A stretch of 22,731 bases of DNA, taken from assembly GCA_024243835.1 (NCBI GenBank), contig JALPMN010000576.1, positions 1 through 22,731 of the forward strand, written 5' to 3'. The DNA comes from Enteropsectra breve. Taxonomy: Eukaryota > Microsporidia. Made by a program: the position numbers and the translations under genes. The notes beneath the pieces were generated by a model, which saw only the letters and a program-made list of their open reading frames with translations, searched no databases and had not been told where the DNA came from. Positions 1-22,731 of the stretch are shown in pieces (position 1 is the stretch's first letter; each line of letters starts with the position of its first letter).

Positions 1-2282
1 AATTATTTAAATGTGAAGCTTTCAGAATTAGACAAAATTCCTAAAATTCCAGACTTGGCTGAAAGACTCAAATATATTTAGGATATAGTTTATAACCAGG
101 ACAAGAGATTTTGGCTCCTTGAAACGACAAGAGATGTAAATGTTTTGTCGTACACCGAAAAATTTACTAGAGTAGGCGAAGTACTGATGGCAGGCATTAC
201 TGGTGAAGATGCCTCTCAGGAGCAACTTATAAATGATTTATCTGTGCAATATTTGTTTTATACGGCATGCAAACAAGGTGCACCGACTTTCGCAAAGCGT
301 ATATCATCATGAATTTTATCTCGAACTGCAAAGAGGAAATTAATTATAAATTCATAATTCCCTTAAAAAGTAAATTTTTACTTTCCGGCCTAGAACCTAA
401 AGACCTTGAAGAAGTTTTTAAAAAAATCTGCACGTCAGTCCCTTTTGAACATGCAGACAAATTCTCCTTGATCTATTACTGTATGCTCACATCTTATTTT
501 GACTTAACTAAAGATTACGAAATGAACCGCCAGTTTATCATAAAGTGGATTCTTTCTAGACATTCATTTATACTCATGGGATTTAAACATCAAGGAGATG
601 TTACCGACGCAGAGGCTGCGTACTATCCCCGCGCGGAAGATATTTACACTGCATTCGCTGATTCTCTCCATGATCCGCGACTTATAAACAATATTATCGA
701 CCAAAATGCATTAGAGTTTACGTTTAAAGGGCTTTGTCACTATCCAGAGAGCAAAGAAGCATATGAAAAACTTGTTACGCATCTGATGGAAGAGTATTAT
801 ATTAAATTGAGGGAAGAAAATAGTTCTGATTACTACCATGGGATATTTGTGGCCAGGCATGGTGCTGATCCCCAGCACTTTTCCTATCCAATTTATAAAA
901 AGATTCTTACAAAAACTGGAAGAGATTTAAAATCATCCGCTTTTAACTTCACTGATATCGACACAAAACCAGTAAGTTTGCCGGCTTTTATTCACGATGC
1001 GATTCTCAAAATGCTTTTTACCATGGCCCCAGTGCGTTACTGCAATGTCGTTGAAAAAATCACTCAATATGCCATCAAATACAGTAATATTTATAATATA
1101 GATAAAAAATATGCTGATTTTCTCCGTGAAACATACAACGTAAACCAAATCGCTCGTATTTCTGCAAGGGCACACATTGTGGAATGCATTGAGAAAGAAG
1201 ACTATCCAAATGCTATTTATATTTTCAAAAATATCATTGGTTCTTCTTCTTTGCGTGATTCGATTGATCTATTTAAAAACAGAGGGAAAATGCCTGAGCT
1301 TATTGAGGGGATAAAACCATTTGAATTCGTTAACTGTGAAAATGAAAGGATTATATATAATTTAGTGAAAGAAAACGGTAGTTCAGAGGATGTGGAGGCA
1401 TTACTGCTACGAATGAGCAAGCAGTCCTGTTGCTTTTTTGATGTGCCATCTGAAGAGATTAACTACATTATTAGAAAGCAAATTAAAAATGTCAATAGCT
1501 GTGCAGAAATTGGATCTCTTGCGTTTGTTTGCAAAGACAAAGAGCTTCTTGAGAGCTTTAAGGATGATGTTGATGACATTCTTACAAACTGGGATTTTGC
1601 GCAGAATTTAGAGAAATTTTACAATGGCGTTGCCTCAGTTGAAGGCAGAGCATCAGTTAAAGATTTGCCGTTTTTTACAATGTGCTACACAGAACTGTTT
1701 TTATGGCTAGATAAAAACATCTCAATTTATGATAAGGCGCAGAAGATCAGTAGAATGCTCATGGTAGCAATGCTTGCAGTTAAGGGGCCAAACTCCAGAA
1801 TGGAAGCAGCCTCGATTGAAGACACTAGCATTACTCCCACATATGCACTCGAAAAAGGCATATTTAGGGCTGTTTCTAAAACAAGATTCGGGTATGAAGC
1901 GGTGTGTGCGTTCCAGTTCTATATGGGCGAATCTTTTAGAAAATACTTGGACGAAGAGGTTTTACCGAATATTATCGCCATCGAGGGTGCCGACAGTGTT
2001 GAGTTACTGCAAGCAAGAGAGTTCCGATGCTACTATAGAAAACTTCTAAATCTGAAGGAAGGCCTAACTATCGATTATGGAAGTGGCAGTTGCAGTATAG
2101 AAAAGATGCAGAAGTTTATATATATGACAGAGGCACTGATTCAAATCGAAATTCTTGGTGCACTGAAAGCCATTAAGAAAAAGAGCGAAATAAAGGGAGA
2201 ATTTACAGATATCAAGTACTATACCGAAAATATTCCTATTATTTCGAGGGATATTTATAGAATGATTGCTTCGTCTTTATAA
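1..2282 (+). pseudogene. Truncated, broken member of the secreted RING-like family
   Basis: The reading frame entering from the left edge (starting NYLNVKLSELDKIP) aligns with the stretch just after the last RING cysteine pair of the two intact copies at 2637-5513 and 8404-11376. Signal peptide and RING domain would therefore lie beyond the edge. In this frame there is a TAG at 79-81 where the copy at 2637-5513 has GAG (Glu) in the motif KYIEDLVY. The frame then ends at a TGA near 310-312, while homology continues in another frame (FISNC, matching FIENC/FIKSC in the other copies). One frameshift therefore lies at about 290-312. From there to the TAA at 2280-2282 the frame is open for about 650 residues and aligns throughout with the family body. 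An ATG at 267 opens a 671-residue frame, but it is internal to the domain and has no signal peptide or upstream start motif. Either a pseudogene or, less likely, two sequencing errors. Confidence 0.8.
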
Positions 2283-2636
2283 GTAAAAGATTCATTTACA
2301 AATTTATACTCTTGGTATTAAAAATGTATTTATCACTTAAATTAATGTTTTTAGTACTTGGGCAACAAAAGTTTAAAATAGCAGGCATTTTATGTGTAGA
2401 AATTTAGCATTTTGATATAATTCTGGAGGCAGAAATTATCAATTTCCTCTAGATTTTGCAGGTAAAATTTATATTGGTGTTTTTATTCATTTTTTCGAAC
2501 ATATCCGACATGCGCTAGAAATAATGTTCGTATTTAATTGTTTTTATTCTCCTTTTAATTTGATTTTTAAGGGGCGCATATGAAGCCTTGATTTGTCAGA
2601 AAAATTTACATAAAAAACGGTAGCAAAAATTTGTCC
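2283..2636. other. Intergenic region, 354 bp, AT-rich
   Basis: This stretch separates the broken first copy from the intact second copy. Apart from the promoter-like elements at its right end, I see no RNA gene or convincing coding sequence. A 27-codon frame at 2324-2407 (MYLSLKLMFLVLGQQ...) begins with a hydrophobic stretch but has no other support. Confidence 0.5.
2571..2636 (+). promoter_or_regulatory. GGGGCGC box plus AAAAATTTGTCC start context
   Basis: GGGGCGC at 2571-2577 lies about 60 bp before the ATG at 2637, and AAAAATTTGTCC abuts that ATG. The copy at 8404 has the same two elements (TTTTTAAAGGGGCACA about 55-60 bp upstream, then AAAAATTTGTCC). The gene at 15083 has the box in reverse orientation, GCGCCCC, at 15011-15017. 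GGG/CCC-like and AAATTT-like elements near start codons are described for microsporidia; the role here is inferred. Confidence 0.55.
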
Positions 2637-5513
2637 ATGATAGTTGTGCATCTTCTGATGCAGTGCCTTTGGGCTGCAGATCAAGCAGGAGAAATCGAAA
2701 CGCAGCAGAAACCTACTGCTGCAGAATTATGCGAGGACATCGAGGAAAACCAGAAACAAATTAAAGCTGCGGAGGAGAACAAGGAAAGAAAAGTTTTTCT
2801 AACGCGTCCGATGCCTACCATAAAGCAAATTTATAATGCAAGTGAGCTTAGGAAGTTTTTAGCTCGTGAAAAAGAATCCCAAGGCCACAACAGCCAAATA
2901 AATGATGATATTGCTAAAGAATGCCATATATGCAGTGTTCCGTTTTTCCTTGACAGATATGCAAACAATTTATTCAAGAAACGAGTGTACAAAACACACG
3001 AATATCTTCCAATATGCGTGATGTGCCCTAAACCGCACTGCAACAGCGGAAGGCTGTGCTGCAATTGTACACGCGACTTGATTAACAATTACACTAAAAC
3101 CAAAGCTCCTATAGAGTATTATGATAATAAAAAAAACCCAATTTCAAATCAGAAGATGGCTCCCTGTTATTTATGTTCTACATATTTTAATATCGAGCTT
3201 TCAGAACTGGATCATATTCCTGAGAAAGCAAAGTCGGATAATAAGGAAACGCTAAAGTATATTGAGGATCTTGTTTATTACAAAGACAAGACACACTGGC
3301 TCCTGGAAACAACCGTATCTTCAAATGCCTATTCGTACGTTCTATTTTTTGAAATGATAAAAAAATTAAGCTCAGGCATAATCACACTGGATGCCTCCGA
3401 GAAGCTTCTTGTGGATGATCTTTCAAGGCAAAGTAATTTCTACAGGGCATGCACCCATAGCTATAAATATTTTGCAATTCAAGTTCATGATATCAAAACA
3501 TTCATAGAGAATTGCACAGAGAAAGTCAACTATCCTTTCATGACTCATTTAGCCAGAAAATTTGCATTATCTAACCAAACACCTGATATGCTTGAAGAGC
3601 ATTTTAAAGACATCTGCTCGTCGGTTCCTATTGAGCATGCGGACAGATTTTCAGTGATTTACTATGCCATGATAATCGGTTATTTTGAAAAGACAAAAGA
3701 TAATAATATGAACCTCCAGTTTATAAAAAGATGGATTCTTTCCAAATATTCTTTTATATTAACAGGATTTAAGCATCAAAATCAAATTTATGATCAAAGT
3801 TTAGAGGCGAAATACTATCCTCTTGTAGCTGATTTTTACACTGCATTTATCGATGCTCTTCATGATATCAGGCTTATAGACAACATTATACACTATAATG
3901 CACTGGAATTCACTTTTAAGGGCCTTTGTTACTATCCACGGAATAGTGCTCAATATTATCAAGATCTCATTACCAACATAATGGAAAGGTATTTCAAAAA
4001 GCTGAAGGAAGAGAATAACTACGGGATGTACAAAGACATCTTTGTAAACAGGCACGGTGCAGATGTCCGCCGTTTTTCATATCCAGCTTATAAAAATATT
4101 CTTACAGACGGATTAGGGCATGAAATCAATTCAACCCCTTTTAACGAGCCTAATAGTGCCAATTATATGGTGGGCTCACCGGCATTCATTTACGATGCGA
4201 TTCTTAAGGTGTTTTTCACCATGGCCCCTGAACACTTCGATTATTTTACTAGAAAAATTACTCATTTTTTCATTCAGTACAGTGATCAATATGCAAATGA
4301 AAAAAATTATGCAGATTTTCTCAGAGAAACCTACAAGGCAAAATCGTATGCCGATGCTGTTGTAAGAACAAGCATCAGAGAATGCTTCACAGATAACGAT
4401 GTTCCAAATGCTGTTTTGCTCTTCAAAAACCTGCCAACATCCCTAGCAGTTGAAGATGCAATCGAGCTATTTAATGAAAGGAATTTATTGCCTGAGCTTA
4501 TTGAAGGAATCAACAAGTATGAATTTGTAAACTGGGAAAATGAAACTGCCATATACAAACTGCTAAAAGACCAAAACAAGCTGAGTTCTTTGCCTGCCTT
4601 GCTCGTGGGAATGAGCAAGCAGCCTTCGTGCTTTTTTGAAGCGACAAGTGATGAAATAGATTATCTTCTGATTAATATGTGGCCTAAAAAGTATAAAGAC
4701 TACAGAAGAATTGGGTCACTGGCATTCGTGTGCAGAAATGAGAAGCTTCTTGAAGCCTTCAGAGACGATCTTGATGGGATTCTCACCAACTGGGATTTTG
4801 CACTGAACCTTCATAAGTTTTACAACGGTGTTATTTCGCCTGAGGGGACTACAAACATATCTGATTTGCCGTTTTTCAAAATGTATTATGCCGAGCTGTT
4901 TCAGTGGCTTGACAAGAATATATCAAGTGATGATAAAGCACTGAAGATCAGCAGAATGCTTATGGTGGCGAAACTTGCACTGAGAGACCTGACTGTTAAA
5001 ATGGAAGTTGATCCTATCGAAACAGGAGATGCCTCAATAAACATGGATTCGAGTAGCAGTAGCGCATCTATTTTTGCACTTGAAAAGGAAATAATTAAGG
5101 CTGTAGGAAACACTACAGTCGGATATGAGGCCTTCTGTGCATTCCAGTGTTTTTTAAGTGCGGCATTTAAAAAGCATTTGGAAGAGGAGATTTTCCCGGA
5201 TATTGTTGCCATAGAGGGCGAAGACAAAGCTGGGCTGCTGAAGGAATGGGAACTTAGGGGCTACTACAGAAAAATTTTTAGGCTGCAGGAAGGACTAAAT
5301 ATTAAACAAACTATGATCAGCTGCAGTGAAGAGGAGATGCGGGAGTTTTTAGAAATGCTTTCTGCGCTGCAGCAGATCGACAAGTTTAGTGCTCTGAAAG
5401 GCATCAAGTCAAAAAACGAGATAGAAGGAAAAATGACAGATATCAAATACTACACGGATAATATCGCTGTATTACCGATTCATGCTTATGGCTTTATATT
5501 ACGATCTCTATGA
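2637..5513 (+). CDS. Secreted RING-like zinc-binding protein, family copy 2
   Basis: This encodes 958 residues from the ATG at 2637, chosen because AAAAATTTGTCC immediately precedes it; the in-frame TTG six bases upstream is not a credible eukaryotic start. Residues 1 to about 15 (MIVVHLLMQCLWAA) form a signal peptide. Residues 30-80 are charged and helical. Residues 96-180 carry a RING-like array: C96-x2-C99, H121, C127-x2-C130, H134-C135, C141-C142-x-C144 and C177-x2-C180, with long insertions compared with a standard RING. The remaining ~780 residues look helical and are shared with the copies at 1-2282 and 8404-11376; I recognise no named domain in them. There is no C-terminal membrane segment. 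RING domains typically recruit ubiquitin-conjugating enzymes, so a secreted, possibly host-directed ubiquitin-ligase-like role is possible, but activity is unproven. Parts of the body are almost identical in nucleotide sequence to the third copy. Confidence 0.85.
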   Translation: MIVVHLLMQCLWAADQAGEIETQQKPTAAELCEDIEENQKQIKAAEENKERKVFLTRPMPTIKQIYNASELRKFLAREKESQGHNSQINDDIAKECHICSVPFFLDRYANNLFKKRVYKTHEYLPICVMCPKPHCNSGRLCCNCTRDLINNYTKTKAPIEYYDNKKNPISNQKMAPCYLCSTYFNIELSELDHIPEKAKSDNKETLKYIEDLVYYKDKTHWLLETTVSSNAYSYVLFFEMIKKLSSGIITLDASEKLLVDDLSRQSNFYRACTHSYKYFAIQVHDIKTFIENCTEKVNYPFMTHLARKFALSNQTPDMLEEHFKDICSSVPIEHADRFSVIYYAMIIGYFEKTKDNNMNLQFIKRWILSKYSFILTGFKHQNQIYDQSLEAKYYPLVADFYTAFIDALHDIRLIDNIIHYNALEFTFKGLCYYPRNSAQYYQDLITNIMERYFKKLKEENNYGMYKDIFVNRHGADVRRFSYPAYKNILTDGLGHEINSTPFNEPNSANYMVGSPAFIYDAILKVFFTMAPEHFDYFTRKITHFFIQYSDQYANEKNYADFLRETYKAKSYADAVVRTSIRECFTDNDVPNAVLLFKNLPTSLAVEDAIELFNERNLLPELIEGINKYEFVNWENETAIYKLLKDQNKLSSLPALLVGMSKQPSCFFEATSDEIDYLLINMWPKKYKDYRRIGSLAFVCRNEKLLEAFRDDLDGILTNWDFALNLHKFYNGVISPEGTTNISDLPFFKMYYAELFQWLDKNISSDDKALKISRMLMVAKLALRDLTVKMEVDPIETGDASINMDSSSSSASIFALEKEIIKAVGNTTVGYEAFCAFQCFLSAAFKKHLEEEIFPDIVAIEGEDKAGLLKEWELRGYYRKIFRLQEGLNIKQTMISCSEEEMREFLEMLSALQQIDKFSALKGIKSKNEIEGKMTDIKYYTDNIAVLPIHAYGFILRSL

Positions 5514-5950: not shown

Positions 5951-8281
5951 TTACCCTTCCATTTCAAAACGAATCTTTTCCCTCAAAACACTTTTGCTAT
6001 CGCAGGGCTTATTTCCACTACTGCTCCGTTCCAATATAAAATCAAGGACTTCATCTTTCCAGACATCTGTGTTTATAATCTGATATTTTTGTGAATGGAA
6101 CATAATTGTTAATTTCGCTTGTTCTGATTTATAAATATACCGATGATAAATATATTCTATAGTAGACTTTGCAAATTGAGTAACAGGGTTATTGTTGGGC
6201 TCTTCTGTTTCACTGAAAAAATCCTCTAGAGGGTAGCATATTGTCATTGCTTTATCATCAAGCTCTAAATTAGCAAGACATTTTAAAATACCACTCTGGT
6301 CAATCCTTTCACCCAGGGTAAATGATACTACTAAATTATCGCTGAAATTTACCACCGCAAAAAGATCTTGTGTATTGTTAAGGGATCTTTCGTAAATCAA
6401 GGTGCTTGTTACAACCAGTGCAGATACTTCATAGATACAAGTTTTGCATTGCATTGGCTGACTGAAGAAATTCTTCGTTGCAATTCTTTTATTTGTTTCC
6501 CTGAGCATATTGGTAAATTCCTTCATGTAGTCACGCTCTGGGTAGATTTCTAATGTTTTAAGGGCCAGGGGCGTTTGTTTAACATTTTTACAACTGTCTT
6601 TGAATTGAGTGAACTGTGCTAAAATAAGCGATTCTTCATGAAACAGCTCACAGTTATTATTGTACCCGTGCAAAAAGGCTGATGCCCCTCTAATATTTTC
6701 AACAAGGCAATACTTCACGGCATCTCTCACAATTTCTTCAGTGCCGGTAAGGTGTGTTACAGAGTTCCTCAGGCTATTATATTTCTCAACATCATCTAAA
6801 GTATATTCGATCCCATAGATTTTGTGTAAATCAATGAGGGTTTCAATAGTTTCTGTTCTGAAAAGCAGAAATAGATAGAGCGGGTCCACGCAGGAGTTGA
6901 TGCCGCGCATGCCGAAGTGTTCAAACCTGTGCTGCTTTAAAAGCACAACAGTTCTTAGTGTTAACCTGTTGAAGCCGTATACTTTAAAGCCTGTCAGTGC
7001 CTTTAGTGATTCTTCATTATTAGAAACAAGGGATTCTAAAAACATGTCGTAGTAACTGTATTTATCTTGCTTTGGATTGTTATACTTTGATTTGGGTTTA
7101 TTTGAAATATTAAGGGTTTTAATATCAGGGAAGAGTTGTAGAACCGCAGAGATCATGCCATCTAAATCCTCTGTTATTTCCTCTGTAGCTAAGGCTTCAT
7201 AGCTAATCACTTTCTTAAACACCCCGTTTCCTTCGTTAAAAAGATTGAGAAAAGTGACATGATCGTGGGTGCTTTCACGTGTCGGAGTAAAGAGACAGAT
7301 CTTATCCCCTTCCGTGCGCCTGTATCTCAAATCACTGAATGCATCGTTCAATTTTATTGAATATTCATTCTCGTGGCTAATAATCTCAACAATACGGAAA
7401 AGTGGCTTAATGAATTTTATTCTGCTAAACAGGGAGTATAGCGCTGCAGACTCAGGATCTAAAATATTTGGAGTATCTGGAGTATCTGTTTTATTAGATG
7501 AAACTTCACTGTTCATTTGAAGCAGGAAGTATAGGTTCAGAGCGAACATAATGTCGCATTTTATTTTTAGATGAGCATATTTTTCAGGCTCGTATTTGAG
7601 AAAGATGTCACAAGTTGAATCGGGGTTAAATAGCAGCAACTCATAATAGTTAAGCAGATTAAAGAGCGTGTCTGGGCACAGCTTTATACTCGTTTTGATA
7701 AATAGGTGGTAGCGCATCTGGCATATCAGCTTTATCAGCTCAATATCGTATTTCTCTAATATTTTTAGCACGGGAATATTATCATCATCAATTTCTGCCA
7801 GAAGATCTGCATTTTTTTCTTGCAAAATATCAGCAATTTTCATAGAGAAAGCTGCGGGCTTTTCAAAAAAGTCGTATGGCGCCGTTTCCAAAGCCTCGAG
7901 ATAAAGCTCTGCAAACTTGCAGCGCTGCTCTATTTGATTAGGCATTACTTTTGTATCAGAGGTATCATTTGAATTGGAAGGCTTTTCCACACTTTCATTA
8001 TTGCGCCATCTATAAATTAGCGCACTCAACACTTCTGAGGAAAGCAGTTCTGACAGTGAAAAGACACTTGTATCCGCGCTTCCCGAATCCACTTCTACTG
8101 CCAACTTGTTTGTATATGGGCTGTCAGGCTCTAAAATGCAAAAATTTTCATTCAGAAATCCTGGGAGTTTTTCAAAGAGTTTCATGGCTGCAAATATGCA
8201 GAATATTATGTAGGGGGTAATTAATATGATTTGGCCACATATTTTCTCCTTTATTAAAAAGGCCCCACACGGCAATGCCAT
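5951..8281 (-). CDS. Secreted or membrane protein of unknown function, possible leucine-rich segment
   Basis: The ATG at 8281 gives 776 residues. An in-frame GTG at 8290 is rejected as a eukaryotic start. ATG at 8185 (MKLFEKLPG, 744 residues) is an alternative, with TACCCCC about 35 bp upstream. The longer form is preferred because residues 17-32 (IILITPYIIFCIFAAM) make a signal peptide or anchor after a short charged leader. The middle contains a stretch with LRR-like spacing (FPDIKTLNIS, then LKALTGFKVYGFNRLTLRTVVLL); it is weak evidence, though LRR-bearing secreted families are known in microsporidia. A Cys pair (MQCKTC) lies near residues 608-611. It is unrelated to the RING-like copies that flank it and lies on the opposite strand, convergent with the second copy and divergent from the third. 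No catalytic motif was recognised. Confidence 0.75.
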   Translation of the reverse strand: MALPCGAFLIKEKICGQIILITPYIIFCIFAAMKLFEKLPGFLNENFCILEPDSPYTNKLAVEVDSGSADTSVFSLSELLSSEVLSALIYRWRNNESVEKPSNSNDTSDTKVMPNQIEQRCKFAELYLEALETAPYDFFEKPAAFSMKIADILQEKNADLLAEIDDDNIPVLKILEKYDIELIKLICQMRYHLFIKTSIKLCPDTLFNLLNYYELLLFNPDSTCDIFLKYEPEKYAHLKIKCDIMFALNLYFLLQMNSEVSSNKTDTPDTPNILDPESAALYSLFSRIKFIKPLFRIVEIISHENEYSIKLNDAFSDLRYRRTEGDKICLFTPTRESTHDHVTFLNLFNEGNGVFKKVISYEALATEEITEDLDGMISAVLQLFPDIKTLNISNKPKSKYNNPKQDKYSYYDMFLESLVSNNEESLKALTGFKVYGFNRLTLRTVVLLKQHRFEHFGMRGINSCVDPLYLFLLFRTETIETLIDLHKIYGIEYTLDDVEKYNSLRNSVTHLTGTEEIVRDAVKYCLVENIRGASAFLHGYNNNCELFHEESLILAQFTQFKDSCKNVKQTPLALKTLEIYPERDYMKEFTNMLRETNKRIATKNFFSQPMQCKTCIYEVSALVVTSTLIYERSLNNTQDLFAVVNFSDNLVVSFTLGERIDQSGILKCLANLELDDKAMTICYPLEDFFSETEEPNNNPVTQFAKSTIEYIYHRYIYKSEQAKLTIMFHSQKYQIINTDVWKDEVLDFILERSSSGNKPCDSKSVLREKIRFEMEG

Positions 8282-8299
8282 GTTCCCCACACAGCAATT
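8261..8299. repeat. Short tandem duplication at the start of the 5951-8281 gene
   Basis: CCCCACACGGCAAT and CCCCACACAGCAAT occur about 22 bp apart, with one mismatch in the core. On the minus strand the copies read attgc[tc]gtgtgggg and straddle the proposed ATG at 8281. The duplication puts a GGGG tract on both sides of the start codon. Confidence 0.55.
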
Positions 8300-8342: not shown

Positions 8343-8403
8343 GGGGCACAGCTGATGATTGATTCATTTTAATATTTTTAAAAAATGACACAAAAATTTG
8401 TCC
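8343..8403 (+). promoter_or_regulatory. GGGGCACA box plus AAAAATTTGTCC start context
   Basis: GGGGCACA at 8343-8350, preceded by TTTTTAAA, and AAAAATTTGTCC touching the ATG at 8404 match the elements in front of the second copy. The sequence between the two elements is not conserved, which suggests that the elements themselves are under selection or that only these parts are recognisably ancestral. Confidence 0.55.
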
Positions 8404-11376
8404 ATGATCGTTGTGCACTTATTAATACACTGCCTCTGGGCAGCAGAGCAAGCACAGGACACAGAAATACGGCCGGAGAAAAAAGAAACCAATTATAAAG
8501 AGGAATATGAGAAAAATATACAAGCACTTAAAGACGCAAAGGAAAAAAAGTTGACTAAAGTGAAACTACCAGGTGTGATGCGCACACGACAGCAGTTCTA
8601 CAATGAAAGAGAGCTCAGGGAGTTCTTAGAGCAAGAAAAAAATGCACAACCACTTGAAGATCAATGCAACAAAACACATAACGACAAAGTTTCTGAACAA
8701 TGCGTTATATGCCATGAATTATTTTTTTCCGATCTTAACGAAGGCAGTCTGTTCAAGCAGAGAGTCTACAAAACGCACGGCTACAAAATACTGTGTGTGA
8801 TGTGCCCTAACCCGAACAACTGTGGTGGCAGGATGTGCTGCGACTGTGCACGCGAATGTATTAGTGTTGAAACTAAAAAGCTGTCTTATGCAGAGCCTGT
8901 TACTTATTCAGATTGTAAAGATGCCGAAATTTCAAGCAAAAGAATTATTAACTGCCCGGTTTGCAGAGGTTACTTGAATATTGAGCCTATGGAACTTGAA
9001 ACAATTCCTGAAGATGCAAAAATGGAAATCAATGAGAAAATCAATTATATTGAGGATGTAGTCGCTGGCCAAGATAAGAAATACTGGTTCTTAGAAACGA
9101 TAGAGCTTAACTCACATGAGTTTTCTGTCAGTAAAAGGCAGTATGATACAGTACATGATGTAGTTGAAGCTGGCAAAAGCAGTAAGAATCTGTTACTTAA
9201 TCCCACCCAGGTGTTATTGTTGGAAGATCTTAGAGTGCAATTTTATTTTGTTAATAGTTGTATCAGTACAATCTGTAAACATTTTTCAGATCGGATTCGC
9301 CCTATCAAAGACTTTATCAAAAGCTGCACCGAAAAAATTATCTCTCCATTCATAATGACAGAGTTTAGAGAAAGAATTATAGAATCTAACATACCAGACG
9401 CAGAACTCGACTTTTATATTGAAAGGATTTGTTCCGCCGTTCCAATTGAGCATGCAGAGAATTTCACAAGAATCTACTACTCTATGATAATAGGCTATTT
9501 CGAAAAGACAAAGGATTATAATAAGAATCTCCAGTTTATTAAGAAATGGATGCTCTCGAAATACTCCTTTATACTCACTGGATTTCAACATAAAAGTATA
9601 GTTAATATTGTAGAAGCTGCATACTATCCTCGTGCTGAAGATTTTTATACCGCATTCGCTGATGCGCTTCATGACCCGCGGCTCATAAACAACATTATCA
9701 ACTGCAACGCATTGGAATTCACGTTTAGGGGGTTAAGCAACTACCCACAGGGTGCACTTGCCGCTTATGAAAATCTCATCACGAATCTAACGGAAAAGTA
9801 TTACAATGCATTGAAAAAAGAGAATAACTACGGGATGTACAAAGAAATATTTGTAAACAGGCACAATGCCGATGTCCGCCGTTTTTCATACACAGTTTAT
9901 AAAAATAAACTTGCAGAAGAATTAGGGCATATTATTATTTCATCCGATTTTAACAAGCCTAATAGTGCCTATTATATGGTGGATCCACCAGCATTCATTT
10001 ACGATGCGATACTCAAAGTGCTTCTCACAATGGCCCCCTCTTATTTCGATGGTGCTGTTGAGAAAATTACTGATATCGCTATAACTAAAAGTAGCATTGT
10101 TAAATGCGACGAAAACTATGCAGATTTTCTCTGTGAGACATACAAAGCAAAATCAAGTGCTAAAGGTGTTTTAATTACGAGTATTGCAGAATACATCAAG
10201 AAGAAACAATATCCCGCCGCGGTGCTTCTTTTCAAAAATCTTCCCGATGCCTTCGCTACTCAAGAAGCTATTAATCTGTTTTATAAAATGAAAGCATTGC
10301 CAGAGCTTCTAAAAAGACTTAATAAATATGAATTTGTTAACTGGGAAAATGAAACTGCTATATACAAACTGCTAAAAGACCAACGCAAGCTTAGTTTTTT
10401 GCCTGCCTTACTTAAGCAAATGAGCAAGCAGCCTTCATGCTTTTTTGAAGTTTCGAGTAAAGATATTGATAATTACATTGTAAGGTATTATTTAGACAAT
10501 CACAACTACGAGAGTCTAGGATCAGTGGCATTCGTGTGCAGAAATGAGAAGCTTCTTGAAGCCTTCAGAGACGATCTTGATAGGATTCTCAGCAACTGGG
10601 ATTTTGCACTGAACCTTCATAAGTTTTACAACGGTGTAATTTCGCCTGAGGGGACAAAAAACATATTTGATTTGCCGTTTTTCAAAATGTATTATGCCGA
10701 GCTGTTTAAGTGGCTGGATAAAAAGATCGATGATAAAGCACTGAAGATCAGTAGAATGCTGATGGTGGCGAAGCTTGCTTTGTGGGATTCAACCGTTAAG
10801 AAGAAAGCCGAGCCTAAAGAAGGGGTTAGTACTGGAGATGTTCCAAATAACATGGATTCGAGTAGCAATGCGCCTATTTTTACACTTGAGAAGGACATGC
10901 TTATGGCTGTAGGATCAACTAAAGTTGGGTTTCAGGCATTCTGTGCATTCCAGTGCTATTTGAGTTCTGCTTTTAAAAAGCATTTGGAAGAGGAGATTTT
11001 TCCTGGTGTTTTAGCTATCGAGGGTGCTGACAGTACTGAGCTGCTGAAGGAATCGGAGTACCGAGGTTACTATAGAAAGCTGTTGTTATTGCAGAAAGGA
11101 TTAAATATTCAGGAAGGGATGATCAGCTGCAGTGAAGAGGAGATGCGCAAGTTATTAGAAATGCTTTCTGTGCTGAAAAAAATCGAAGAATCTGGTGCGC
11201 TGGCAGCTATCAAGAAAAAGAGCGATATAAAAGGGGATATGACAGATATCAAGTACTATACCGATGCTATCGCAGTATTGCCAAAATGTGCTTGTGTAAT
11301 TGTTCAAAGATTTTTCAGAAATGCTAGTCAAAATATTAGCAGTGGTAGAAAAAGGCCATTTCCATACGATGCATAA
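8404..11376 (+). CDS. Secreted RING-like zinc-binding protein, family copy 3
   Basis: This encodes 990 residues from the ATG at 8404, placed by the AAAAATTTGTCC context; the upstream in-frame TTG is rejected. The signal peptide MIVVHLLIHCLWAA is nearly identical to that of the second copy. The RING-like domain (residues 100-187) has C100-x2-C103, H125, C131-x2-C134, C140, C145-C146-x-C148 and C184-P-V-C187-R, the last being a classic RING-type C-P-x-C-R ending. The helical body follows, with stretches almost identical to the second copy at the DNA level (for example 10540-10715 against 4733-4908). The C-terminus runs about 17 residues beyond its relatives: where the second copy ends with TGA this one reads AGA and continues to a stop after PFPYDA, suggesting a stop-loss extension. 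Likely host-exposed and possibly ubiquitin-related, by inference. Confidence 0.85.
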   Translation: MIVVHLLIHCLWAAEQAQDTEIRPEKKETNYKEEYEKNIQALKDAKEKKLTKVKLPGVMRTRQQFYNERELREFLEQEKNAQPLEDQCNKTHNDKVSEQCVICHELFFSDLNEGSLFKQRVYKTHGYKILCVMCPNPNNCGGRMCCDCARECISVETKKLSYAEPVTYSDCKDAEISSKRIINCPVCRGYLNIEPMELETIPEDAKMEINEKINYIEDVVAGQDKKYWFLETIELNSHEFSVSKRQYDTVHDVVEAGKSSKNLLLNPTQVLLLEDLRVQFYFVNSCISTICKHFSDRIRPIKDFIKSCTEKIISPFIMTEFRERIIESNIPDAELDFYIERICSAVPIEHAENFTRIYYSMIIGYFEKTKDYNKNLQFIKKWMLSKYSFILTGFQHKSIVNIVEAAYYPRAEDFYTAFADALHDPRLINNIINCNALEFTFRGLSNYPQGALAAYENLITNLTEKYYNALKKENNYGMYKEIFVNRHNADVRRFSYTVYKNKLAEELGHIIISSDFNKPNSAYYMVDPPAFIYDAILKVLLTMAPSYFDGAVEKITDIAITKSSIVKCDENYADFLCETYKAKSSAKGVLITSIAEYIKKKQYPAAVLLFKNLPDAFATQEAINLFYKMKALPELLKRLNKYEFVNWENETAIYKLLKDQRKLSFLPALLKQMSKQPSCFFEVSSKDIDNYIVRYYLDNHNYESLGSVAFVCRNEKLLEAFRDDLDRILSNWDFALNLHKFYNGVISPEGTKNIFDLPFFKMYYAELFKWLDKKIDDKALKISRMLMVAKLALWDSTVKKKAEPKEGVSTGDVPNNMDSSSNAPIFTLEKDMLMAVGSTKVGFQAFCAFQCYLSSAFKKHLEEEIFPGVLAIEGADSTELLKESEYRGYYRKLLLLQKGLNIQEGMISCSEEEMRKLLEMLSVLKKIEESGALAAIKKKSDIKGDMTDIKYYTDAIAVLPKCACVIVQRFFRNASQNISSGRKRPFPYDA

Positions 11377-11864
11377 AGTCACGCTTCAAGTTGATCGTAT
11401 ATTTTTTAACATTAAAATATATAACTTATGCAAGTCTTATTTTTCTCTGCAAAATAAACAGTGTTTTCGGAATATAAGCCACGGCTGTACAAGTAAAAAA
11501 CTATATATTTTTAAAAACATCGTAGTGCGGCTTATCTATTGATGCTTTTTAATGATTGCTTTATTAATCTTTTCAGCCAATTATTCATATTCATCTTTTA
11601 CACAATGGAGGAATTCTCATTAGCAAGTTTATAAGCACAATATCTCTATTCTTAAGATCTATTCTATATACTATCTTTAAATGCTTATCATAAAGTGGTG
11701 CTATCTAAATAGAAGCGAAAAATAATTTTTTGGATAAAAAGTTTGATGCAAGCACTCTATTGAAAATTTGAGGGGGTGCCGTTGGCCCTTATATGATTGG
11801 TTATCTATATATCTTTAAGGAAGCCTATTGTTTATTAAAAATATATAGACCGAAATAAAAATAA
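11377..11864. other. Intergenic region, about 490 bp
   Basis: AT-rich sequence after the third RING-like gene. It holds a G-rich stretch, AGGGGGTGCC at 11771-11780 followed by GTTGGCCC, which could be an upstream box for the decayed frame at 11865. An 80-codon frame running 11300-11542 overlaps the upstream gene in another phase and has no support. No RNA gene was seen. Confidence 0.45.
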
Positions 11865-12173
11865 ATGAAAAGGGTTTAAATCATTGTCTTTATTCTAACG
11901 GTCAGCGAGAGACCCGCCGTACCCAAGGCTTATAATCCAAAATGCGGATTTAATGAGAGTTTCACTGAATATTTTGGCACTAATCCTATATACACAAAAT
12001 CATTTTGTTCGTGTTCTATGCAACGTTTTAAAGTACACTCCATGCAAGTTTCCATCATGAATGGGTTTGGTCTGGCAGGTGCCCTGAATGAGTTTGTAGT
12101 GAGCAAAAAGGAATATATTCTTTTATCAGAGGTCTATGGACAAATGTTTATTATTATATTTTTATTACTGTGA
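11865..12173 (+). pseudogene. Possible decayed small secreted-protein gene
   Basis: ATG at 11865 is followed by AAA AGG GTT and then TAA (11877-11879). The same frame stays open for 97 further codons to TGA at 12171. Ignoring the stop, the N-terminus reads as a signal peptide (MKRV, stop, then IIVFILTVS). The rest is a non-repetitive 100-residue protein ending in a hydrophobic tail (GQMFIIIFLLL). Base composition at 11895-12130 is clearly richer in GC than the flanks, as in the real genes. Minus-strand frames are also fairly open here (one runs about 70 codons and includes ETCMECTLKRC), so strand and identity are uncertain. I recognise no homolog. Confidence 0.35.
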
Positions 12174-12363
12174 TAACAAATATACTCTTTTCTAACGGCT
12201 ACTTCATTTAATATTGTTTTTTATTTTGTCAATAAAATAACGTTTAGCTCTAGTGCTACAGATACAATATGTGTAATGACTGCACACCTCATTTTACTAT
12301 CATGTTCGGTGTGCTTTTATCGTTTATTTAAAAATTTTATGAATAAAATTTTAATTTACCGTT

Positions 12364-13263
12364 ATGAAAAGCAGAAACGTATGGATATGCTTCACAACAC
12401 TGTTTACACATATAAGAGGATCGGTGTATTGTACTAACGAGGAAGACACAATCTCCAAGCTCAATGATGACTTCGCTACAGAATCCAGAAAAGGATTCAT
12501 TCAAAGAAATAGTTCTTGCTTTGGGTGCTTGAGACCAAACAGACCAATAAAAACAGCATCAAAGAATAGCTTTTCTGATGCTCTTTGCGACTTTTTGCGT
12601 TGCTCTGTAGTAGCGAGAAAAGAATTGCTTGAAACTGAAAAAATTCTCTTAGAGCACATAGAAAAAGACGGGAAGACAAACTTAAAGAATATTTTTTATT
12701 CTATGGAAAATGATAGCAAAGACAAAATATCAAGGGTATTTAAATTGTTCAGCGAATACAGTGCCATTTCTCCCAATGGAGTTCAGTCAAAGCCATTCCA
12801 TTCTATTGAGTATGTTCTTAGTCACAATGAGCTTTTAGACTTCATCAACCCGAAACTAAGCTCCGGACGGATTTTCAAGATTTTAGAGAGCATAGCTAAA
12901 CAATATCGTGGTAACAAATATTCATCATTTAGTTTTTACAATATTAATCTGCCAGAAAATTTCATCTTTGAAATAAGCGAGGGCTCATTTGCGCACATTA
13001 AAAGTCTCTTCGAAAATAAAGACTTTAATTCACTGAGCCATGGGCTTGTAACAAAACACTTTGAGGTTTTCGATGGCCTTGAGGAGACCTATAGTTATAG
13101 AGTAAATGCAGTGCTTTATAAGGAAAAGGATATATGGAGAGCTGTGCCAGTTAGAGATGATGAGAAGTACAGAAGCGATATGATGAGCGCAATTGAATCT
13201 TTAGCCATCAATGGCGGATATCTTATGTTTAAGAAGGTGCAGCCCCGTTCCATTAAAAACTAA
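12364..13263 (+). CDS. Secreted protein, putative inactive USP-like fold (copy A)
   Basis: This encodes 299 residues. The ATG follows AAAATTTTAATTTACCGTT, similar to the context of the next gene. Residues 1 to about 23 (ending GSVYC) look like a signal peptide. Its pattern matches the paralog at 13544-14377 and, more distantly, ubiquitin-specific proteases. S69-F-S-D-A-L-C-D-F-L resembles the Cys box (C-[FY]-x-N-[AS]-x-L-Q-x-L) with Ser in place of the nucleophile. LPENFIFEIS (196-205) resembles the 'LP..L...L' strand. YRVNAVLY (245-252) resembles the strand that opens the His box, and GGYLMFKKV (284-292) resembles the terminal 'AYLLFYER' strand. The His-containing G-H-Y motif is not visible. 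If right, this is a secreted, catalytically dead ubiquitin-binding or decoy protein. The gene itself is well supported; the fold call is an inference from motif reading only. Confidence 0.75.
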   Translation: MKSRNVWICFTTLFTHIRGSVYCTNEEDTISKLNDDFATESRKGFIQRNSSCFGCLRPNRPIKTASKNSFSDALCDFLRCSVVARKELLETEKILLEHIEKDGKTNLKNIFYSMENDSKDKISRVFKLFSEYSAISPNGVQSKPFHSIEYVLSHNELLDFINPKLSSGRIFKILESIAKQYRGNKYSSFSFYNINLPENFIFEISEGSFAHIKSLFENKDFNSLSHGLVTKHFEVFDGLEETYSYRVNAVLYKEKDIWRAVPVRDDEKYRSDMMSAIESLAINGGYLMFKKVQPRSIKN

Positions 13264-13543
13264 TCATTTCAAAATTTAATATTCGTTATTCAATGCTTTC
13301 GTACACACTGGTGAAAACTTTCTTTTTAAATTTAGAAGCTAAAAATATCATATGTCGTATAAATATTCTAACTAATTAAAGACCCATCTATGAACAACGC
13401 GTGTTTTCTTAATTTTTCAGCTATAAAAATATCATACATAGGAATTAAAGCATCATTGAGAGGCCTATTTTCCGACTATAAATTACTTTAAACTGTCAGA
13501 TAAAAATTTTCAATCAAAAAATTATTGCAAATAATTTTACCTT

Positions 13544-14377
13544 ATGATCAGAGGTCTTTGTATTTCACTCACACATGCTGTCTCAGCTTTTATGCCTGGC
13601 GAGTCTCCCACGTTAAAGCGTCGTTCAGCCTCCAGAGTGGAACTCTCATCATACGATGATGCTCTTGCCATCTGTGAGTTTCTGTCTTACAGCCCCAAAT
13701 TCAAGAAAGCAATCAGCAAGGCAGCAGTTTGTGAAGAAAGCAAAATTTTAAAGGCCCTGCAGAAATTCGTGCAAAATAAGGGCAAACTGAGTAGGACCAG
13801 AGTAGCAGAGATTGAAAATGTTATTGATAGCACAGACACAGGCTTTGAGAGCTTCGAATTCTTCATTACCGAGATGTGCTGTGAGCAGGACGGCCTGGCT
13901 GCACCCTTTTTTTCTTTCAGCTTTGAAACAGGCCCGCAAATAAATAAATCTGCCGCCCCAACTCTTCTGCAGAACCACATCATTGATTTCGGGTATTTGC
14001 ACCAGTTTTCAACTAGCCACCATGCCATTTCGATTCCACTAATAACCGAAACCCTTGCTACCAGAGCAGCTACACTAAACTTTGAACCACGAAAAGTAAA
14101 AAATATTCATTTTCCCGAGAGCCTTATATTCGCGCTGAATGATACAAACAGAAAAAATGCACTGACTGCATATTTCTCAATATCCTCGTTTGTATCCTCG
14201 AGAAAACTACAGGGCTACCGGATCGCTGCTGCACTGATAAAGGAGGCACGGCCAGCATCTGGAACAGTCTTAAAAGTATTGAAGCTTAAGCATGATGCTG
14301 ACTCAAGCAATCTAACGAAGGAGGATTCAAAGCATATCATGAAACACGGCATGTATCTTTTATATGAGCGTGTTTAG
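13544..14377 (+). CDS. Secreted protein, putative inactive USP-like fold (copy B)
   Basis: This encodes 277 residues, in tandem with and 280 bp after copy A; the start context is ATAATTTTACCTT-ATG. A short signal peptide (MIRGLCISLTHAVSAFM) is likely. It gives the clearer USP-like series. SSYDDALAICEFL (35-47) parallels T-C-Y-M-N-A..Q-x-L, with S36 at the nucleophile position. FESFEFFITEM (101-111) parallels Q-D-A-x-E-F-L..L. IHFPESLIFAL (188-198) parallels the LP-strand. YRIAAALI (225-232) parallels Y-x-L-x-A-V-I, and MYLLYERV (270-277) parallels the C-terminal A-Y-x-L-F-Y-x-R. The G-G-H-Y catalytic His motif is replaced by ARPASGTVLKV. At 277 residues it is near the lower end for a USP catalytic core, and the zinc-ribbon part is missing. 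The alternative is an unrelated fold with chance resemblance. Confidence 0.75.
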   Translation: MIRGLCISLTHAVSAFMPGESPTLKRRSASRVELSSYDDALAICEFLSYSPKFKKAISKAAVCEESKILKALQKFVQNKGKLSRTRVAEIENVIDSTDTGFESFEFFITEMCCEQDGLAAPFFSFSFETGPQINKSAAPTLLQNHIIDFGYLHQFSTSHHAISIPLITETLATRAATLNFEPRKVKNIHFPESLIFALNDTNRKNALTAYFSISSFVSSRKLQGYRIAAALIKEARPASGTVLKVLKLKHDADSSNLTKEDSKHIMKHGMYLLYERV

Positions 14378-18754: not shown

Positions 18755-21055
18755 TTAGATAGATGCTTCTGGCACAGCAGCGCCTTTGCTGTCTGATCTC
18801 ATCATAACGATAATCACTATAATCAAAGCAATTGCACTAATTGCTACTATCACTATCATTCCCTTGTGCTTATCGACTTTATCCATAAGAGTTGGCTTTT
18901 TATTGGGGTCTGATGTCTTATTCTCAAGCCCTGATGCAATGGCAGTGTTTTGCTCCTTAAGGGCTACTAGTTTTGCTTTTATAGCCGCTATTACATTAGT
19001 GAATCTGTTTTCAATATCAACATTCAGGTCATTCATATTGTTCAGAAGCAAGTTAAAATCAGCCTCAGTTTTCAATTCGGTTTGATATCTTTCTAATTTA
19101 CGTGATGCCGTGTTAGCGAAGGCCTCCAGTGGCTCGATTTCCTTCAACCGCTCATCAAGGAAGGCCAAATTCTTCTGAAGAATTTCCTTCTTATTTTTGA
19201 GATTCTCGTCGGTTGGCACACTTTAAAGATGCTCATCGATCTGCGTTATCATCTTTTCCATGCTTTGTTTCAGTGCCTCATTTTCTTCCTTGTTGTTTAT
19301 CTCAGCAAGCTTGCTTTTCCCGTCCTCTAAGATTTCTGCTAGTTTGATAGCGAGATCCTGGCATTTTGCGCGCTCAACTGCCTCCTTCTCTCTGTTATTC
19401 ACGACCTGAACAGGATCCTCTTTTTCAGCACCATCGGGTTTTTGTTCTGTTGGTATTTTCTTTTCGTGTGAATCATCAACTACCGGTGGATCGCTTGTTG
19501 TCGAATTATCAGGCTCTGCTGGCTCCTCTATAAAGTCTTTGAATTCAGGATGTTGTTTCAAAAATGCCAGTGCTTCGCTCCATTCTTTATAGATAGGGCT
19601 ATGTTCATTACAGCAATATAGATACCCTTGATTACGATTTGGCTTGTTAGAAAATTTTCTTACAAAATCTCTTATTTGTGACAATAATACATTTATTGCC
19701 ACTACTTTACTATAGCATTTTATATTTGCTTTATTAATTTCTACACCATCTATACAACCTTTATTCATCTTATATTCGTAATCGAGGATAGTAACAATGT
19801 TTGCGATTATAACCATGTTTGTTTTTTCTTTACTCTTATCACGATTAATTTTCTCCGCGGCCGCGTTAAAAGCGGCACTAAGATCGTAATTATCTACTAT
19901 TACCTTATCCATTCTTATAACCTGCTTATTCATGTCATTTGCTAAACCACTTGCCTGCAATATTTTTTGACGATTATTAATTTCAGTTTCAAGATCGTTG
20001 TAAAACTTCTCATAGGAACAACCCGGCTCATCAGTTAGAACCACTTCATCATTAAATTCCTTCTGGGTGATGGGAGTTTCAATTTTAAAAGAAGTTTCTT
20101 TTGTAGTATTTATTGATTTGTATGCAACAGAAGTGTCCATATTTATAAACTTTTCATATTCTTTTTGGCTGAGTATGAACTCCAATGCATGGTCATAGCT
20201 CATATATAGCTCGAGCGGAAAAAGGACTCTTGTAAGAAAGCATTCTATTTTGCCACGCCTTATAAAATCACGTGAAATCTCAGTCGTTATAGAACCCATT
20301 AGTCTGAATATGCTGTATCGTCGTTGAATGAATAACGCATTCTGGGAATTTATTTTTTCTCGTACTATAGAAATAGCAGTATTGAAATCGTTGAGAGTTG
20401 AAGGCTGCTTTGTTTCATGGTTCAACGTTTTTGTGACTTGCTGTATGCAGATTTGTTCTAGTTCATAACATTTGATTTTATTTTCTGCTTCCTCTAAAAT
20501 CTTTTTATGTTCGTTGGAAGTCTGGTTATACAAATGTTCCAAAGCTACAATCATTTCAAGTAGGACTTTTAAATGCTTGCGCACATTTTTTACATCCTTC
20601 CGATTTTTAGCTTCAATTTGCACAAATGCAAATTCCGACGCAGCATTTAGATTAAGATTATTTATAATGATAGGCAATATGTCTATTTCATGATTCGTGA
20701 AGTCAAATTCTTCACTTAATTCACCTCCAATTTTATGATGATTTTGTTCTTGATTAATAAAAAATTTTTTATAAAAATCCTTTACACTACCATTATGACT
20801 AAAAACATGACCTGGGAGTTCGGTTGATACAAGAGTGTTGTTATCTTTGTTATCGTCAGCATTATGCGGAGGCACTGTTTCACCCTTTGGATTGGGCTGT
20901 GGAATTGGACTTTCATGCGCTTTTTCTACTTGATCACCGCTGATTTTAGCTGCTTGTGGTGATGAAAGTGGTGTTGGTCCTACTGTTTCATCTGATGGCA
21001 CACATTTGCTGATTGCAATCAATGTCAATATCATGTCATATCCGTTGAACAGCAT
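18755..21055 (-). pseudogene. Secreted/membrane-anchored family gene split by an in-frame TAA
   Basis: The ATG at 21055 follows AAAAAATTTCACCC. MLFNGYDMILTLIAISKC is a signal peptide. The upstream 610 residues comprise a Pro/Ser-rich segment, a helical body aligned over more than 250 residues with the gene at 21389-22731, an acidic linker and a coiled coil ending MITQIDEHL, then TAA at 19223-19225. The same frame continues without another stop for 155 more codons to TAA at 18755-18757. It carries on the coiled coil (PTDENLKNKKEILQKN) and ends in a membrane segment (MIVIVAISAIALIIVIIVMM) and the tail AAVPEASI, matching the C-terminus SDAVSEAAI of the neighbouring paralog. One base change therefore separates protein from anchor. 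It may be a pseudogene, a newly soluble secreted form, stop readthrough or a sequence error. If the stop is used, the product is 19223-21055. Confidence 0.8.
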
Positions 21056-21388
21056 GGGTGAAATTTTTTAAAAAATTTTATAGGGGTATTTTATAATAAT
21101 ATCAATGGTGTTCAAGATTAAAGGAGAAAAGACGTTTGAAATACAAATCCTATCCACTTTAAACAATGCATTTGTATAAATTATAAATTAAAAAGTGATG
21201 ATAGTTTATATTACCAAAGAAAATGCATTTACGATCACTTTTATTAATACTCTATGCTATAATAATAACCGCCTCTGTAAAATATCGTTACTTTATTTCT
21301 ACAAATCTAACCTACAGCACTATTTAAATACTTAAGACATGTATTTAAATTAATGAAGATCTAAATGAAATTTAATAAATAATCTTTT
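21056..21388. other. Intergenic region, 333 bp, with minus-strand start signals
   Basis: On the minus strand, TACCCCTA (centred near 21085) lies about 30 bp before the ATG at 21055, with AAAAAATTTCACCC abutting the ATG. The rest is AT-rich spacer after the stop of the right-hand gene, with nothing else recognised. Confidence 0.5.
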
Positions 21389-22731
21389 TTAAATAGCTGC
21401 TTCTGATACGGCATCGCTTTTGTTGCTTATCTTTAAAACAACAGCAATTGCTAATATTAGAGTGACTGCTCCTATCAGTATCTTTCCTTTGTGTGCAAGT
21501 ATTTTACTCATTAGCGAAGGCTCAGTTTTAATCTCGTTTTCATTTTTTGGGTCTTGTTTTACTGGTGATGCATTAGCCTTGGAAGAATCGGTTACAACCG
21601 GAATCTCTATTTTAGGCTTCTCAACTTCTTCTTTTCTTATAGCTTCACTCGACTCTGTGCTTTCTGTTGATGTCGTACTGACATCAATACCGCTGGGATG
21701 AGAATCTTCTGCTAAATCATCGATGCACGGCATTACAATTGTGTTAGTTTCTGATGACTCCTCAATAAAAGCTTTGTATTCTGGATGGTGTTTCAAAAAT
21801 CTCAGTGCTGCCTTATCATCTGCCTTCATATAACTATGATATACACAGCAGCCTATAAAGTCATTAATTAGGCTCGGCTTTTTACTCTGTGCTTTTATAA
21901 ATGGTATTATAATATTCCTCATAAATACCAATATGCCAACCATGTTGTTATAGCAATGTACCTTGTCTTTCTTAGATTTGCTTTCTTCTTTGAATCGGCA
22001 ATAATTAAGCCTGAAAGCCCAATTTAGAATAGTTACTATTTTGCCTATTATGTCCATGCTTTCTTTTTCTGACGAATTTTCACGTTTAATTTTCTCAACA
22101 GCATACTCAAAAGCTTTTGAAATATTATACCGGTATATTATTATGGTTTGTTCTATTGTGAACACTGCTCTTATTTTTTTTTCCGCTTTAAGTATCATTC
22201 TGTAAAATTTTTTTCTTCACTAACTAAGTCTTTCGAAAATTCGTGCCATGAATATTTTTGTGAACCATCCTTTAGAACCACATCTTTATCAAAGGTCTCA
22301 CTTGTAATAGGAGTTTCTACATTAAAAGTAACTTGTTCCGAGTTAAATGCATGGCTGTTTGCATTAGCCGTTACTCCGTTTTTAAACTTTTCATATTTTT
22401 CATGATTAAGAATGAACTGCAGTGCTGGTTCATAGTTCACATAAAGTTCGTGTGGAAGATAAATTCTCCTAAGAGGACATTTTAATACATTAATATTAAG
22501 AAATTCAGATTCTAAAAACGACTGTATCTCACTCATGCGATTAAGTATGCTATATAGTCTTTTGCAAAATGTTCTTTTGGTAGCTGCTGCATTTATTCGT
22601 GCTACTGAAATAGCACTATTGAGCTCTTCGATCTCTTCGATAGATAAGCATTTCTTGTTTCCAGTGTTTAGAATATTTTCTTCATAGCTCTTAATCTTCT
22701 CGGCAGAGTCCTTAGTTAGTTTTTTATATTC
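21389..22731 (-). pseudogene. Partial, frameshifted paralog of the 18755-21055 gene
   Basis: The gene runs off the right edge: the frame reading leftward from 22731 is open and aligns with the paralog at 18755-21055 (YKKLTKDSAEKIKSYEEN against the coiled region, and NSAISVARIN against NTAISIVREK). It continues through LPHELYVNYEPALQFIL (paralog LFPLELYMSYDHALEFIL). At a seven-A run (T7 on the plus strand, 22208-22214) the homology moves to another frame, the first ending at 22195-22197. The second frame carries on to 21389 (YNISKAFEYAVEKIKREN against YDLSAAFNAAAEKINRDK), then a Ser/Thr/Glu-rich linker, a membrane anchor (GKILIGAVTLILAIAVVL) and the tail SDAVSEAAI. It lacks the long coiled coil before the anchor seen in the paralog. 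Signal peptide and start lie outside. Pseudogene, or a one-base sequencing error in the homopolymer. Confidence 0.8.

Follow-up and report, generated by a model that had tools for sequence, protein, structure and literature searches.

Genes A and B of the microsporidian Enteropsectra breve are members of a gene family that numbers at least 11 in the genome searched (3.96 Mb), and sequence comparisons place the chance that this family has USP (ubiquitin-specific protease) ancestry without USP catalysis marginally on the favorable side of even. The two genes lie in a window of 22,731 nucleotides, the whole stretch of DNA that was analyzed, which is the entire contig C23 of the genome assembly (3,958,979 bases, 155 contigs). 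The original prediction had described them as tandem secreted proteins resembling catalytically dead USPs. The genes, and the segments on which the comparison with USPs turns, are as follows.

12364-13263, plus strand: gene A, an intact ORF of 299 aa, the most divergent of the 11-gene family, with a weakly signal-peptide-like N-terminus.
13544-14377, plus strand: gene B, an intact ORF of 277 aa, a core family member, with a weakly signal-peptide-like N-terminus.
12568-12597, plus strand: A residues 69-78 (SFSDALCDFL), where the helix begins that matches the one following the catalytic Cys in USPs; the nucleophile site originally predicted is Ser69.
13679-13702, plus strand: B residues 46-53 (FLSYSPKF), corresponding to the 'ALLSVPEI' stretch that follows the Cys box in USPs, in the N-terminal of two collinear profile matches.
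12952-12975, plus strand: A residues 197-204 (PENFIFEI), the 'LP' strand, with a Pro invariant in the family, inside the USP-aligned region.
14114-14137, plus strand: B residues 191-198 (PESLIFAL), the 'LP' strand, with P191 invariant in 11/11 members, inside the USP-aligned region.
13096-13119, plus strand: A residues 245-252 (YRVNAVLY), the Y-x-x-x-A-x-L strand; the USP GH[YF] box expected downstream is absent.
14216-14239, plus strand: B residues 225-232 (YRIAAALI), the Y-x-x-x-A-x-L strand; the His box is absent downstream.
13219-13239, plus strand: A residues 286-292 (YLMFKKV), the last strand, corresponding to the 'AYxLFYER' end of USPs.
14354-14374, plus strand: B residues 271-277 (YLLYERV), the last strand, at the protein C-terminus, as it also is in the small USP on contig C29.

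The relatedness of the two adjacent, intact ORFs was borne out by BLASTP (30.8 bits, E 2e-5, 20% identity, without composition correction) and by the family HMM. Built without A, the HMM recovered A at E 1.7e-6, the best of 102 decoys reaching 5.4, and built without B it recovered B at E 1.3e-54 (Z = 3500 in both tests). The decoys were 51 proteins and their reversals, the 51 being what was left of a background set of 89 ORFs after removal of 20 that matched the family or USPs and of 18 near-duplicates. When B was used as query against its own genome, 9 relatives were found (best E 7.8e-29), one each on contigs C50 and C94 and seven on C9, where other genes are interspersed between some of the family members; a short fragment at C89:5148-5339 was left out of the family count. 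One of the C9 genes (C9_21k, C9:21088-21912) has an in-frame stop upstream of the domain and is possibly a pseudogene, or carries a sequence error. All family counts are lower bounds, since the genome size given for the species in the available text of Wadi et al. 2023 (PMC10393165) is ~6.0 Mb, against the 3.96 Mb searched. With A as query, A itself was the only sequence recovered in its own genome and in the protein database, and phages gave no match; the family profile likewise found A and B alone in the protein database. Such absence means little, because the database appears to be incomplete for E. breve, with the C9 paralogues and the C65, C122, and C93_38k genes missing from it even though they are within its length range.

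The soluble domain of the family, lying behind an N-terminal stretch, is about 250 residues long. Besides the start Met, the B positions F46, F123, F155, P191, and Y225 are invariant in the family alignment, and L47, F53, F196, A229, L231, L273, and Y274 are near-invariant across the 11 members. Three of the elements that had been picked out by eye, namely the LP, Y-x-x-x-A-x-L, and C-terminal strands, are conserved family-wide. A conserved C-x-x-C pair was not found in the family. The signal peptides assigned to A and B fared less clearly: their N-termini have a signal-like character, but they are only weakly hydrophobic, with best 19-residue Kyte-Doolittle means of 0.94 and 1.11 (1.51 in C9_24k and 0.87 in C9_21k), while 7 of the 11 members carry a strong N-terminal hydrophobic anchor, with means of 2.59-3.09 as judged by hydropathy.

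The word 'tandem', taken to mean a recent duplication, does not suit the two genes. In the tree, B is sister to the gene on C50 (support 96/93), and A forms a long branch of unsure placement. A block of the window (8398-14377) corresponds to one at C50:668-5497: a gene of a second, large family precedes a B-like gene there too, order and orientation being preserved, and the large-family genes of the two contigs share 65% identity; an ORF of at least 180 aa in place of A was not found in the C50 block. As the large-family gene ahead of the C50 gene has a relative ahead of A and B, part of the A/B block is common to two contigs, and this shared gene order, together with the grouping of B with the C50 gene and the long branch of A, makes A and B unlike a recent duplicate pair. 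Three members of the large family lie in the window (267-2282, 2631-5513, and 8398-11376), and genome-wide it gave 25 match rows, some of them split or with stops. In the second and third of these genes the N-terminal segment is rich in Cys and by eye resembles a RING, the Cys pattern of the third being C-x2-C, C-G-G-R-M-C-C-D-C, C-P-x-C; a RING assignment was rejected, the best Pfam zf-RING match (E 0.45, to the C50 relative) being below the cut-off. On the minus strand, positions 5951-8290 encode a 779-aa protein with a sub-threshold match to the CNOT1 N-terminal domain (E 1.2e-4, 22.2 bits, cut-off 27), and at 18755-22536 the adjacent ORFs 18755-19219, 19223-21055, 21389-22198, and 22195-22536 appear by eye to be one or two paralogues in pieces.

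Whatever the ancestry of the family, it does not look, from its sequences, as if the USP catalytic mechanism is available to it. The GH[YF] box is missing in 11/11 members, and none has [GS]H[YFWASV] downstream of the helix; in the family-USP alignment the USP box faces a gap. This agrees with the earlier statement that the catalytic His motif is gone, and it supports the view that these proteins cannot work as USPs independently of where they came from. With the GH[YF] box gone and the C-x-x-C pair not conserved, ubiquitin cleavage of the USP type is not expected of any member. The proposal that a Ser stands where the nucleophile should be was not upheld. A gapped alignment of A and B can pair S69 with S36; in the ungapped column (the conserved Leu minus 9) A has Ser and B has Asp. 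Across the 11 members this column holds S, D, Y, R, and K once each, E four times, Q twice, and Cys never, a variability which means that a Ser standing in for the Cys in A and B does not characterize the family. Because the profile alignment to USPs begins after the site, the exact nucleophile column is unsure. Nor was the Q-D-A-x-E-F-like segment read in B supported: the Q-D there, Q116-D117, falls some 18 residues beyond the QDA box in the alignment, and the box is opposite a gap.

Two residues past the ungapped Cys position, Ser is found in 7/11 members, Cys in two (C9_22k and C9_24k), Gly in one, and Ala in one (B). The two Cys-bearing members raise the thought that a USP-derived family might have kept enzymatic activity through a different arrangement, say with the C9_22k/C9_24k Cys as nucleophile and a migrated His; in favor of this, USP53 and USP54 were annotated as inactive and proved active, according to the available text of PMC12037411. 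This alternative is nonetheless very improbable, given that the same column is Ser, Gly, or Ala in the other nine members, that A and B lack the Cys, and that a GH[YF]-type motif is absent from all 11.

The same genome encodes TLC-family nucleotide transporters and several USPs. At C93:30666-39468 there are four consecutive genes with signal-peptide-like starts and UCH domains. Three of them retain the Cys (N-A-C-F-I-N or Y-A-C-F-I-N) and the His (G-H-[YF]), with UCH matches of E 2e-8 to 4.9e-10, while in the fourth, ENBRE01_0327 (C93_30k, C93:30666-32162, 498 aa), Gln takes the place of the Cys (N-M-Q-F-V-N) and the His is retained (S-H-F); this protein has a UCH match (E 0.0044) below the Pfam cut-off and matches a neighboring USP of the array at E 1.2e-6. 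From its sequence, ENBRE01_0327 is likely to be a secreted pseudo-deubiquitinase. The idea of a secreted pseudo-USP, originally attached to A and B, thus survives in a different place, being clearer in this gene, with its Gln for Cys and secretion-type start, than in either of them. Elsewhere, C65:15894-16997 and C78:2411-3514 carry an identical membrane-anchored USP next to an identical neighbor gene, reflecting either a recent duplication or assembly redundancy. The gene at C108:18717-19898 has a UCH domain with a sub-threshold zf-UBP match, and both the Cys of the Cys box and the GH[YF] box are absent; we take it to resemble the nuclear pseudo-USP Sad1/USP39.

The case for a USP relationship of the A/B family comes from profile-profile comparison. 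The fullest template held 30 USPs, made up of 10 own-genome domains and 20 database proteins (P0022 and P0024 were excluded from the USP profiles as too long, and P0003 and P0004 were dropped as the same proteins as C93_30k and C29). Against it, hhalign gave a score of 25.0 (P 0.01) for family columns 22-90 on USP 32-110, and a second match of 22.0 (P 0.029) for columns 171-251 on USP 200-288. The two are collinear: the first covers the helix that follows the Cys box, and the second begins at the LP strand and extends to the last strand, the end of the domain falling where it should. Realignment gave a single alignment over family columns 21 to 254. Their sum, 47.0, exceeds 184/184 decoys (80 block shuffles, 32 forward or reversed pieces from other E. 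breve families, and 72 single-protein pieces), for which the maximum was 40.1. Both matches persist when A, A together with B, or the pair of Cys-bearing members is left out of the family.

Other template sets, which overlap one another, pointed to the same regions. A 28-USP profile matched both, more weakly (20.2 and 19.0), and against the trimmed family the sum of 39.2 was reached by 0/100 shuffles and 0/32 decoy pieces. Ten own-genome USPs also matched both (21.7 and 19.8). The C-terminal region was matched by four canonical USPs (32.8, P 9.3e-4; score reached by 0/150 shuffles), by nine diverse USPs (33.6, P 7.7e-4; best match reached by 0/184 decoys), and by six own-genome USPs (25.9, P 0.01). 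Taken singly, the 11 members scored above 90 background pieces with the 28-USP profile (p 3.9e-4, the members not being independent), and in the reverse direction the family HMM placed 29 USPs above 144 background pieces (p 1.5e-4) and above the 72 forward pieces (p 1.8e-3). Among all 173 sequences, C93_30k was the best of the 29 USPs, in the same register, and second overall behind a reversed decoy.

Against this stands the possibility that the family is a lineage-specific secreted or membrane-anchored one, with a fold unrelated to USPs and a likeness that is due to convergent hydrophobic patterning, an explanation whose chances fall somewhat short of even. It draws on the missing curated family or PDB match: none of the 11 members matched Pfam UCH (PF00443) at E up to 10 (HMMER filters drop weak matches), and the family profile found no PDB chain at E 10. 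It draws also on the low hhalign probability for the family against USPs, which was 22% at best, 4% with the 30-USP template, and below 2% in some sets, and on the dependence of the outcome on the template set. When canonical USPs were dropped one at a time the signal was lost in 3/4 sets, and the C93 array profiles and C65 alone gave P 0.22-0.24, the full-length C93 alignment 0.39, and C93_30k alone 0.05. With a plain HMM of 28 USPs the members did not stand clear of background, the best of them reaching E 2.1 against 1.2 for the best decoy, though 5/11 were within its first 11 rows, and single sequences in hhalign showed no significant advantage of 29 USPs over 72 decoys (p 0.084); C101 was omitted from the single-domain USP tests owing to a long insert. 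Of the five USPs above the 95% line of the family HMM, C93_30k alone was in register. With the modules taken separately, the C-terminal score of 14.1 was reached by 12/200 shuffles and the N-terminal score of 19.7 by 4/200; the best single match of the 28-USP profile was reached by 2/100 shuffles and 1/32 decoy pieces, and the collinear sum of the nine-USP set by 2/80 shuffles and 1/32 decoy pieces. These figures are to be read in the light of some 18 overlapping template profiles having been tried, of a USP fold that had been proposed by eye beforehand, and of family members that are not independent tests. Finally, other large microsporidian families have an unrecognized fold: four further of the largest nematode-microsporidian families were modeled, and NemLGF2 alone resembled a solved fold in the available text of Wadi et al. 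2023 (PMC10393165).

An unrelated fold would nevertheless have to produce a pair of collinear matches, one toward each end of the domain, that beats every decoy with the inclusive template, and a C-terminal register that is matched by several overlapping USP profiles. On balance, USP remains the best candidate fold, as the original prediction proposed; its collinear profile matches beat decoys, but single scores are weak and template-dependent, and comparison with curated families and solved structures gave no match. A decayed USP fold in the A/B family is probable, not proven, and its USP ancestry has odds a little above even. Other candidates were judged to be chance matches: A alone gave sub-threshold Pfam matches to YlmH_1st (E 0.029) and the papain-like Peptidase_C97 (E 0.072) and a best PDB match of E 0.45, and B matched 3C-like proteases in the PDB at E 0.76-0.80. 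NCBIfam returned nine families, with one member each (best E 0.019), and these were likewise set aside.

Compared with USPs of peptidase family C19 (PF00443, UCH), the A/B family appears to keep the order and spacing of the post-Cys helix, the LP strand, the Y-x-x-x-A-x-L strand, and the last strand, above decoys with the inclusive template although not with all. In B, Y225 lies 34 residues after P191, which equals the Ser-Tyr distance in the own-genome C29 USP. The family differs in having no GH[YF] box, no conserved C-x-x-C pair, no Pfam match, and an ungapped nucleophile column that is never Cys in the 11 members. The C93 array shares with it the genome, secretion-type N-termini, and side-by-side copies, and includes the best USP match of the family HMM (ENBRE01_0327, in register), but its proteins have a recognizable UCH domain, are 462-736 aa in length with long regions before the domain, and in three cases keep the Cys and His. 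There is also a likeness to the microsporidian large gene families (NemLGF, PanLGF, EbrLGF), as characterized in the available text of PMC10393165: at least 10 paralogues in one species, no known domain, and a signal peptide or transmembrane segment in at least half of the members, to which the N-terminal anchor in 7/11 members (hydropathy ≥2.59) may correspond. The large gene families of Wadi et al. 2023 may already include the A/B family.

What such proteins might do can be considered against the host setting. E. breve forms spores in the intestinal cells of Oscheius nematodes (PMC5179134, available text). In C. elegans, ubiquitin marks some Nematocida parisii cells and limits the parasite, while most cells escape, possibly by suppression (PMC4063957, available text). 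According to the accessible part of PMC5423893, the UCH domain ranks with those found most often in microsporidian proteins that are putatively host-exposed. A literature search on secreted, inactive, or effector USPs, microsporidian deubiquitinases, and Nematocida UCH gave no such family in titles or opening abstracts, the nearest being EnP1, a microsporidian effector that raises host H2A monoubiquitination (PMC12795459, in the text available).

If the soluble domain does descend from a USP, it would have retained the strands of the palm and the thumb helix that follows the Cys box, in order and at their spacing, and, with the His box lost and the C-x-x-C pair not conserved, would not cleave ubiquitin in the USP manner. 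The strong anchor of seven members could place the domain at the surface of the parasite or within its secretory path, and the weaker, signal-peptide-like starts of A and B may allow release. Most likely, in that case, the non-catalytic module would bind ubiquitin, ubiquitylated parasite-surface proteins, or parts of the host ligase, and once bound could mask or sequester host ubiquitin signals, hiding them from host recognition. Such a masking function, added to USP ancestry without catalysis, is a tentative proposal that we place well below even odds, secretion, binding, and masking all being inferred. Equally doubtful, at present, is the wider picture of a microsporidian USP fold turned into an expanded, non-cutting, mostly membrane-anchored surface family that captures or hides host ubiquitin marks, working alongside a pseudo-USP with Gln for Cys and signal-peptide-like USPs in which Cys and His are retained. 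If true, a non-cutting USP-like family would be a concrete candidate for evasion of host ubiquitin without proteolysis, and would suggest that some of the large gene families labelled 'unknown' are decayed ubiquitin enzymes.
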